Source: Natronobacterium texcoconense
GTDB lineage: Archaea > Halobacteriota > Halobacteria > Halobacteriales > Natrialbaceae
Assembly: GCF_900104065.1 (NCBI RefSeq)
Contig: NZ_FNLC01000001.1
Location: forward strand, 1,178,001 to 1,242,000
Direction of reading: 5' to 3'
Length of the DNA stretch: 64,000 nucleotides
Positions 16,518 to 46,538 of this stretch are shown here, one piece after another. The position numbers and the translations under genes are program-made. The notes beneath the pieces are model-generated. The model saw only the letters and a program-made list of their open reading frames with translations, ran no database searches and was not told where the DNA came from. Each line of letters starts with the position of its first letter. Position 1 is the first letter of the stretch.

Positions 16518-16602
16518 GCCGAGATAGCCTAGCCCGGCCAAGGCGGCAGATTCGAAATCTGCTGTCCTCACGGACTCGGGAGTTCAAATCTCCCTCTCGG
16601 CG
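16518..16602 (+). tRNA. tRNA-Ser (anticodon CGA)
   Basis: The 85-base cloverleaf has acceptor stem GCCGAGA/TCTCGGC, anticodon stem GCAGA/TCTGC around loop TTCGAAA (anticodon CGA, reads UCG), a long class II variable arm (TGTCCTCACGGACTC) and a T-arm GGGAG-TTCAAAT-CTCCC, with G as discriminator. No CCA is encoded. The sequence from the T-loop to the 3' end is repeated three more times downstream. Confidence 0.96.
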
Positions 16603-17041
16603 CTTCTGTGGCGACCAACAACGACGAGCGGCGCGTAGCAACGCGAGTCATCCGGTCGCCACGAACGACTACGGGAGATTTGAATCAGGGAGGTCGCAGG
16701 CTCGCGAACGAAGTGAGCGAGACCGTCCGACTGTGGTTCAAATCTCCCTCTCGGCGCTTTTCAGCGAACAACACCGCCGAGCACCGCGTAGCGTGTGCTC
16801 GGCATCCGTGAGCGGAAAGCGTGAACAGGGAGTTTGAACGAGACCAGGCGCGCGCAGCATAGCGAGCACGTCTGGGCGTTGTTCAAATCTCCCTCTCGGC
16901 GCTTTTCACCAGCACAAAACGACGAGCATAGCGAGTCGTCCGTGCTGCTGAAAACGATACAGAGGAGATTTGAATTAGACCGAGGTTCTGCGCCGCAGGC
17001 GCAGGTTCTCGGGCGTTGTTCAAATCTCCCTCTCGGCGCTT
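16582..17041 (+). repeat. Four copies of the tRNA-Ser T-loop-to-3'-end sequence, spaced 137-154 bases
   Basis: An identical 24-base sequence (starts GTTCAAATCTCC, ends CGGCGCTT) occurs at 16582-16605 (inside the tRNA), 16736-16759, 16881-16904 and 17018-17041. Each interval contains a hairpin: stems at 16608-16616/16654-16662 (9 bp), 16776-16784/16795-16803 (9 bp), and within 16903-16954. Each hairpin is followed by a reverse-complement fragment of the T-arm (GGGAGATTTGAA or variants) at 16673-16685, 16828-16839 and 16965-16975. The copies start in the T-loop, which fits successive integrase att sites, but the ordered hairpins and inverted pieces suggest a defined module. Confidence 0.9.
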
Positions 17042-17245
17042 CTACGGTGACCAATACTGACGAGCGGGCGTAGCGACGCGAGTCGTCCAGTCTCTCCCTC
17101 GGAATCGCAGACGGCGTATACCTCGCCGTCATGCGCAGGGCTGTTTTTTATCGATATGTGTGTGGTCCCCACGCAGTGTGATCGATAGCAACGCTACCGC
17201 CCTTTCGTACGGTCCAGCGCCGCCTTCTCGAGGTGACGCCGCCCG
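17042..17245. other. Gene-free stretch with hairpin and T-run before the Fe-S gene
   Basis: The first 60 bases resemble the spacer after the tRNA-Ser copy (GACGAGCGGGCGTAGC-ACGCGAGTCGTC). A 7-bp stem, GACGGCG/CGCCGTC, at about 17110-17130 is followed by a run of T at 17144-17149. This could end transcription from the repeat region, or the T-rich stretch may be the promoter of the Fe-S gene starting at 17246. No ORF is credible here. Confidence 0.45.
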
Positions 17246-20939: not shown

Positions 20940-21114
20940 GAATGATGAACTGCGACTACGTTCGTCGCGGAATTTCGCGCCCAGCCGGGTCGCCCCGACT
21001 TCCTCTATCCTCGTCAGGCATGGAATCTCGTGCCATCGTACCACGTCCTATTGTAACAGGCCTACTTAACTCCGCCCCTCGAGGCGGAGTTTGCGCCGTC
21101 GTGGTTGCGAGCCG

Positions 21115-45392: not shown

Positions 45393-45477
45393 GCGCGGGT
45401 AGCCAAGCTAGGCCAACGGCGCAGCGCTTAGGACGCTGTCCTGTAGAGGTCCGCCGGTTCGAATCCGGTCCCGCGCA
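45393..45477 (+). tRNA. tRNA-Leu (anticodon TAG)
   Basis: The 85-base cloverleaf has acceptor GCGCGGG/CCCGCGC, anticodon stem CAGCG/CGCTG around CTTAGGA (anticodon TAG, reads CUA), a long variable arm and a T-arm with loop TTCGAAT; discriminator A at 45477. No CCA encoded. The T-loop-to-3'-end part is repeated at 45574-45594. Confidence 0.96.
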
Positions 45478-45594
45478 TTGCTGTCGCGAGCTAACCCGCG
45501 AGCGACAGCAATCGTCGGCCGGTTCGAACCAGACGAGTCGCAGCGCGAACGGAGTGAGCGACCGTCTCGGCGAGGTTCGAATCCGGTCCCGCGC
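45454..45594 (+). repeat. Duplicated tRNA-Leu 3' end with hairpin module between the copies
   Basis: The sequence GGTTCGAATCCGGTCCCGCG plus C occurs inside the tRNA (45456-45476) and again at 45574-45594. Between them lie an 11-bp perfect hairpin, 45477-45487/45502-45512, a palindromic T-loop-like GGTTCGAACC (45521-45530) and the core AGCGCGAACGGAGTGAGCGA (45542-45561). The order equals that after tRNA-Ser at 16.6 kb. Confidence 0.9.
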
Positions 45595-45725: not shown

Positions 45726-46538
45726 ATGGACGGGTTAGACGACGTGTTCGGTGACCTCTTCTCGAGTGTCGACGGTGTCCTGCTGTTTTCGCCGAGTGGT
45801 TCCTACTACGAGCGGTTTGCGGCGATCGAGGAAGTCGACGTGATCGTCGTCGGGACGGAAAACGAGGTCGGCGCGGAGACGTTCGTGGAACTCCCGCTTG
45901 CCTTCGACGACGTCGCCGATCGGATCAAGTTCGGCATCGAGGGAGCACTCGAGCAGGAGGTAATCGAGGACGGGGACGAGCTAGCCTGTGCCACCCGGAT
46001 TTTCGCTGACGAGATCGACACCGTCTCCCGGGTCCGTGCGAGTGCGGACGCACACACTGGCATTTACGATCTGTTCGCCAAGTCCCGTGCCGAACCCGAC
46101 GTCGTCAAGTCTGTCCTCGAGTTGGCGGTCGAACTCGGCAAGAAAGGGCAGAAGGGCAAACCTGTCGGGGCGCTGTTCATCGTCGGCGACGCGGGGAAGG
46201 TGATGAACAAGTCCCGGCCGCTGTCGTACAACCCGTTCGAGAAGTCCCACGTCCACGTTGGCGATCAGATCGTCAACGTGATGCTCAAGGAGTTCTCGCG
46301 GCTCGATGGCGCGTTCGTCATCTCCGACGCCGGCAAGATCGTCTCGGCGTATCGGTATCTCGAGCCCTCCGCGGAGGGAGTGGATATTCCGAAGGGGCTG
46401 GGTGCTCGGCACATGGCTGGCGGTGCGATCACCCGGGATACGAACGCGGTGGCGATCGTCCTCTCCGAGAGCGACGGTCTCGTCCGGGCGTTCAAGGGCG
46501 GTGAACTAATTCTGGAGGTCGATCCGGAGGCGTACTGA
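45726..46538 (+). CDS. dacZ: DacZ-type diadenylate cyclase (c-di-AMP synthase) (270 aa)
   Basis: The N-terminal domain (1-120) begins MDGLDDVFGDLFSSVDGVLLFSPSGSYYERF. The C-terminal DisA_N cyclase domain has the active-site motif DGAFVISDAG (about 200-209) and GARHMAGGAITRDTNAVAI (the second motif, RHM in place of the bacterial RHR). It makes c-di-AMP, which in haloarchaea is linked to osmotic balance. ATG at 45726. The gene is one base apart from the next, a mechanosensitive channel, so the two form an operon. Confidence 0.94.
   Translation: MDGLDDVFGDLFSSVDGVLLFSPSGSYYERFAAIEEVDVIVVGTENEVGAETFVELPLAFDDVADRIKFGIEGALEQEVIEDGDELACATRIFADEIDTVSRVRASADAHTGIYDLFAKSRAEPDVVKSVLELAVELGKKGQKGKPVGALFIVGDAGKVMNKSRPLSYNPFEKSHVHVGDQIVNVMLKEFSRLDGAFVISDAGKIVSAYRYLEPSAEGVDIPKGLGARHMAGGAITRDTNAVAIVLSESDGLVRAFKGGELILEVDPEAY

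Follow-up and report, generated by a model that had tools for sequence, protein, structure and literature searches.

Modules with an rtT-like layout, ending in copies of the host tRNA's own 3' end, lie behind many haloarchaeal tRNA genes

In the window that we analysed, a 64,000-nt stretch of the Natronobacterium texcoconense genome, a tRNA-Leu(UAG) gene and a tRNA-Ser(CGA) gene are each followed on the same strand by repeat modules (Table 1). Behind tRNA-Leu(UAG), the sequence-only reading had described a hairpin, a palindromic T-loop-like sequence, a core and a second tRNA 3' end, and each of these parts could be located. The stem of the first hairpin, P1 (halves 45477-45487 and 45502-45512), is topped by GA/GA mismatches; GGTTCGAACC lies at 45521-45530; and the core AGCGCGAACGGAGTGAGCGA (45542-45561) sits inside a second hairpin, P3, which matches our P3 model R1 at window positions 45529-45575 (G000:C1:1223529-1223575, G000 being this genome; E 3.7e-13). 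The source of the closing tail copy is the last 21 nt of the tRNA (45456-45476), and the fold z-score of the module, from RNA folding against shuffled sequence, is -4.5. A DacZ-like diadenylate cyclase gene (PF19294, PF02457) lies 3' of this module at 45726-46538. No integrase or element remnant adjoins the modules, whose neighbours are the DacZ-like cyclase, mechanosensitive channel and ferredoxin-domain genes. We also considered an integrated element in the window and rejected it, an integrase being absent nearby.

Behind tRNA-Ser(CGA), the order of parts seen at tRNA-Leu recurs three times in tandem, followed by a truncated fourth unit whose P1 is 88% like that of the first. The first interval has the arrangement that had been claimed for it, including the core at 16701-16720. 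The Ser tail copies are 22 nt long and end at 16757, 16902 and 17039, and the fold z-scores of the three complete modules range from -4.9 to -7.5 (the first taken as 150 of its 154 nt). The third is the counterpart of the sole Ser(CGA) module in a congener, G003.

Table 1. Features of the two tRNA loci (window coordinates)
Feature	Position	Strand	Basis
Host tRNA-Ser(CGA)	16518..16603	+	ARAGORN
Ser module 1: P1, inverted arm 16673-16687, P3 with core 16701-16720, tail copy 16736-16757	16604..16757	+	Repeats; fold; match to model R1
Ser module 2, tail copy 16881-16902	16758..16902	+	Repeats; fold
Ser module 3, type II P3 (CCGAGGTTCTGCG..), tail copy 17018-17039	16903..17039	+	Repeats; fold
Incomplete fourth Ser module, P1 part only, end approximate	17040..17110	+	Repeat families; sequence
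Host tRNA-Leu(UAG)	45393..45477	+	ARAGORN; Rfam tRNA
Hairpin P1, perfect 11 bp, beginning at the tRNA-Leu 3' end	45477..45512	+	Inverted repeat; fold
Inverted copy of the tRNA-Leu T-arm, imperfect (GGCCGGTTCGAACC)	45517..45530	+	Predicted fold pairs arm with tail copy
Hairpin P3, type I, containing the core	45531..45573	+	Match to P3 model R1
Direct copy of the tRNA-Leu 3' end, 21/21	45574..45594	+	Direct repeat

We defined an own-tail copy as at least 18 of 20 nt of a tRNA's own 3' end, recurring no more than 450 nt downstream. Such copies follow 23 of the 42 tRNAs in G000 and 7 of 36 in the congener G003. Further afield, G024, from a different genus of the family, has them at 28 of 40 tRNAs, and G030, from a different family of the order, at 18 of 35. 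As a control, the tails of other tRNAs matched in 0.3-0.8% of combinations across the four genomes; in G000 the figure was 8 of 1718 (0.47%), and the copies are therefore not chance occurrences. The preference for the host's own tail amounts to about two orders of magnitude, and the counts in G000, G024 and G030 bear out the expectation that the module would be found at many tRNAs with host-specific ends. Modules have a median length of 123 nt (80-180 bases overall); among 142 arrays, 95 consist of one module, 41 of two and 6 of three. A palindromic arm pattern was found in 333 of 391 Halobacteria genomes, against 0 for the reversed control.

From 42 candidate units in G000 and 195 units over all loci we drew a common anatomy, in which the tRNA end is followed by a T-rich start, P1, an inverted copy of the tRNA 3' end, P3 and the direct tail copy. 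The inverted arm consists of an anti-T-loop, TTYGAA, plus the T-stem; it is an imperfect copy, and the anti-T-loop is not recognisable in 38 of the 195 modules. Beyond the universal loop, the arm matches its host's T-stem 61-65 at 3.16 of 5 positions, against 2.40 (sd 0.064; largest shuffle 2.62) when labels are shuffled. Both tRNA-derived ends thus track the host tRNA as proposed, the direct copies by the comparison of own with other tails and the inverted arm by this T-stem match. The acceptor part is better kept in internal than in terminal tail copies (0.968 vs 0.918), a weak sign of decay of the distal copy.

P3 falls into a few sequence types. Among 18 type I units, taken from many tRNAs and genera, standard pairs occupy 93.5% of cells against 80.5% after shuffling, and 57 cells are changed on both sides against 16.3 expected (0 of 500 shuffles); this signal is lost when the pairing partners are slid. 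Wobble mismatches on the tRNA-sense strand comprise 43 G.U against 17 A.C, a modest excess, and the P3 alignment keeps its GA/GA pairs in sense orientation. Together these two features argue for selection on the tRNA-sense strand, which would act most simply on an RNA. Watson-Crick double changes could arise in part from template-switch correction of DNA palindromes rather than from RNA selection. By inspection, we rejected a kink-turn in P3, where no 3-nt bulge lies next to the GA pairs.

Strong covariation, internal-loop motifs conserved across genera, a structure on the sense strand and the persistence of modules across the class are all what a regulatory RNA useful to the host might display, whether it acted in trans or in cis (as an RNA sponge, in the control of tRNA 3' processing or as a switch that pairs the inverted arm with the T-arm of the tRNA itself), with selection keeping the arms matched. 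We nevertheless regard such a role as unlikely: presence varies widely among congeners (at the looser threshold of at least 16 of 20 nt, a copy follows 28 tRNAs in G000 but 12 in G003), and the interiors at one tRNA belong to several unrelated types.

The core, GCGAACGNAGTGAGCG, forms a hairpin with a GNA loop and tandem GA pairs. It has 13 exact copies in G000, 6 of which lie away from tRNAs, in IS605-like right ends and in terminator-like or 3'-flanking hairpins, and on this count we rejected the 16-nt core as a marker of the family; it is a recurring hairpin tip and no marker of homology. Of the earlier idea of a shared core, what stands is that the interior is common to different hosts; the 16-nt core itself is unspecific, about half of its copies lying elsewhere. 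The family marker is the whole P3 hairpin. A covariance model of P3 (R1), built without the tRNA-derived arms and searched in G000, G003 and G024 at E<=1e-3, gave 53 matches, 50 of them 3' of a tRNA on the same strand (one, G024:316461, trails a tRNA 3' part that has no ARAGORN call). The other three comprise one decayed site (G000), one unit that follows a truncated tRNA end (G024) and one opposite-strand match at tRNA-Pro (G003). A search of 84,980 species with an arm-free pattern for type II P3 gave 10 loci, each from Halobacteria (including Haloferax, Halovenus and Natrinema), and all 10 lie 47-73 nt 3' of a tRNA; seven isoacceptor kinds are represented, and the arms fit each host. At G024:C1:1454800-1455600 (L271), a module follows a truncated tRNA 3' end without a tRNA and may be the distal boundary of an element integrated long ago.

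The sequence-only reading knew of no described system with this layout, but the RtT repeats of E. coli tyrT (RF00391; rttR) have it, and their ends are host-specific too. Like the haloarchaeal modules, RtT units lie directly behind a tRNA on the same strand, end in a copy of the host's own tRNA 3' end, contain a partial inverted copy that pairs with the tail copy, and run from a hairpin through the inverted tail and a structured core to the direct tail, with tandem copies in both. They also share a tandem-GA hairpin with a GNA loop, the tandem GA motif having been reported in RtT (PMC7657543), and RtT copy number varies among strains, as in the 175-bp VNTR of Paratyphi A (PMC2658671). In the 11 tRNA regions of E. 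coli K-12 that we compared, RtT scores above the gathering threshold behind tRNA-Tyr (tyrV), lysT, lysW, lysY, lysZ, lysQ and lysV, and below it in two spacers of the tRNA-Arg cluster. The order there is hairpin or terminator, inverted tail, core and a direct copy of the last 17-19 nt of the host, CCA included, and the Tyr, Lys and Arg copies each bear the end of their own host. At lysQ and lysV (L242, L245), the RtT unit duplicates the tRNA tail; at lysQ the native terminator hairpin is duplicated as well, so that the repeated segment extends beyond the tRNA.

The RF00391 model matched none of 12 haloarchaeal loci at E<=0.5, which places the haloarchaeal modules outside the RtT family: they are rtT-like, not RtT. 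Their core is one long hairpin, whereas that of RtT comprises several short ones; their paired arm includes the T-loop; CCA is not encoded by these tRNA genes and so is missing from their tail copies; and in several genomes they accompany at least half of the tRNAs, while RtT accompanies few. The haloarchaeal modules have the RtT layout and, in our view, probably its life style too.

Other known systems resemble the modules less closely in our comparison. The 3'ETS-leuZ of E. coli, a tRNA 3' external transcribed spacer, is a co-transcribed RNA behind a tRNA, as the modules probably are, and by analogy suggests a possible regulatory role, but the leuZ region that we read has no tRNA end copy, array or inverted arm. 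PATEs, other IS605-derived elements and the SMRs of haloarchaea (PMC3119063) are short, palindrome-rich, non-coding and dispersed, as the modules are; they are not tied to tRNAs and cause no target duplication, and SMRs bear terminal inverted repeats (PMC3119063), whereas each module has a 20-24-nt direct copy. IS605-like right ends do share the hairpin tip of the modules; this tandem-GA/GNA tip, an unexpected likeness, is present in apparent IS605-type right ends at L008, L050 and L051, on C3 and C5 of G000. Integron-like sites were set aside, as the T-arm sequence seems to depart from the attC R-box consensus. Rfam gave no family above or near threshold except tRNA and known leaders. As expected in a haloarchaeon, the window has a leuA-Halobacteria leader RNA (RF03001) at 20967-21019 on the minus strand. 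In the literature on haloarchaeal tRNA trailers and tail repeats, of which our coverage was incomplete, we found no description of the modules, and an earlier one may exist.

Modules turn over. At the orthologous tRNA-Leu(UAG) of 30 genomes, units vary in P1, P3 and number. A 157-nt tRNA-Asn unit of G000 is missing in G003, where the flanks are rejoined within the repeated segment; because a near-identical unit follows tRNA-Asn in G024, this absence is a loss. At Ser(CGA), G003 has the P1 of G000 module 2 fused to the P3 of G000 module 3, a deletion through the inverted arms. Within G003, Pro(TGG) and Ser(CGA) carry an identical 44-nt P3, the identity stopping in the T-loop arms and the outer arms being host-specific, and Pro(TGG) of G000 carries another P3 variant; this is the one clean case of recent P3 transfer between tRNAs. 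In 40 of 139 cases, against 11.5 expected, the nearest P3 relative in another genus belongs to the same tRNA, which indicates that P3 is both inherited in place and passed between tRNAs. Of the two origins that had been posed, a dispersed element and a recurrent recombination product, each holds in part: interiors are dispersed, and recombination occurs at the tail repeats. An extra 365 nt at Leu(gag) in G003 was tried as a clean insertion and proved to be a tandem duplication of flank with tail. In G006 (L124, 1571-1746), a second full-length tRNA-Leu(UAG) lies directly 3' of the first, with N at the junction that may mark an assembly artefact.

Several of these features could also be produced by a genuinely mobile element, small and non-autonomous, that a trans-acting enzyme places site-specifically at tRNA 3' ends with duplication of a 20-24 bp target: the 20-24 bp direct repeats, a unit present in one congener and missing from the other with rejoined flanks, the extra Ser modules on the tRNA-proximal side and the interiors common to different tRNAs. 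However, plain target duplication does not explain why the inverted arm is host-specific too, no enzyme is linked to the modules, the repeated segment can exceed the tRNA end (at Asn, and at E. coli lysQ with its terminator), and the Asn absence looks like a loss, a near-identical unit being found at the same tRNA in another genus. We therefore consider such an element quite improbable.

Archaeal integrases are known to favour tRNA 3' ends (PMC8371274), and the repeat in the modules is a tRNA 3' end, as in tyrosine-recombinase attachment sites, so that the tail copies might be scars of integrative elements, that is, attR-like sites. In G002, a 388-aa tyrosine recombinase (PF00589, E 8e-20; L120, ORF 1718-2884) begins about 58 nt behind the same tRNA-Leu(UAG), where other species have a module. 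Yet the modules here have no integrase beside them, they are tiny (about 120 nt), folded and common to unrelated tRNAs, and scars would explain neither inverted arms nor covariation; we rate this origin as very unlikely. Alternatively, the tail copies might be selected as decoys at which integrases recombine, sparing the tRNA gene, and in G055 (L141) and G061 (L128) integrase-like remnants with broken frames do start just behind a module tail copy and not behind the tRNA. A decoy would need neither inverted arm nor P3, and the order of events could be the reverse, with the module gained after integration, which leaves decoys with a very slight chance of being right.

We think it somewhat probable, instead, that the modules are rtT-like structured tRNA-trailer units, co-transcribed with their tRNA, duplicating and deleting through their tail repeats and exchanging their interiors through the T-loop, a reading meant to cover what we observe of their anatomy, match to the host, covarying base pairs, restriction to tRNA flanks, turnover and reshuffling. 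On this view a module is a folded non-coding unit that immediately follows a tRNA and is probably part of the same transcript. In the RNA, P1 would fold where the tRNA ends, and pairing of the inverted arm with the tail copy would make an acceptor/T-stem-like helix capped by P3. tRNase Z, the tRNA 3' processing enzyme, should cut behind the tRNA and, given the copied host 3' end that closes each unit, again behind each tail copy; with cuts at both ends, tRNA maturation would be unharmed and a small RNA freed. Recombination or slippage between tail copies would raise or lower the number of units and P1 and P3 would be reshuffled within arrays, while P3 interiors would move between tRNAs by recombination at the T-loop segment TTTGAAC..GTTCAAA, common to nearly all tRNAs, so that the outer arms would remain host-specific. 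A shared middle with host-specific ends might thus be explained without a dedicated enzyme, and a candidate for the first birth of a unit is a template switch in which the tail was copied in both orientations. Nothing points to an essential role, since many tRNAs have no module and one congener has few (7 of 36); we prefer to see the modules as nearly neutral or slightly beneficial trailers that persist because they arise easily and do no harm.

More tentatively, the E. coli RtT repeats and the haloarchaeal modules might be two independent lineages of a class that spans domains, RNA-shaped genetic elements confined to the 3' flanks of tRNAs that would take on a copy of the host tail when they arrive, pass between tRNAs through the universal T-loop and be tolerated because they restore the tRNA 3' processing site; we find this conceivable but doubtful. 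The poorly understood E. coli rtT RNA in any case now has a close counterpart in layout throughout an entire archaeal class, and the haloarchaeal modules offer many natural replicates in tractable hosts such as Haloferax. They also caution against taking every tRNA-tail repeat in haloarchaea for the mark of an integrated element. The proposed reading makes a clear prediction, that tRNase Z should cut at each tail copy, and opens the way to asking how trailers act and spread.
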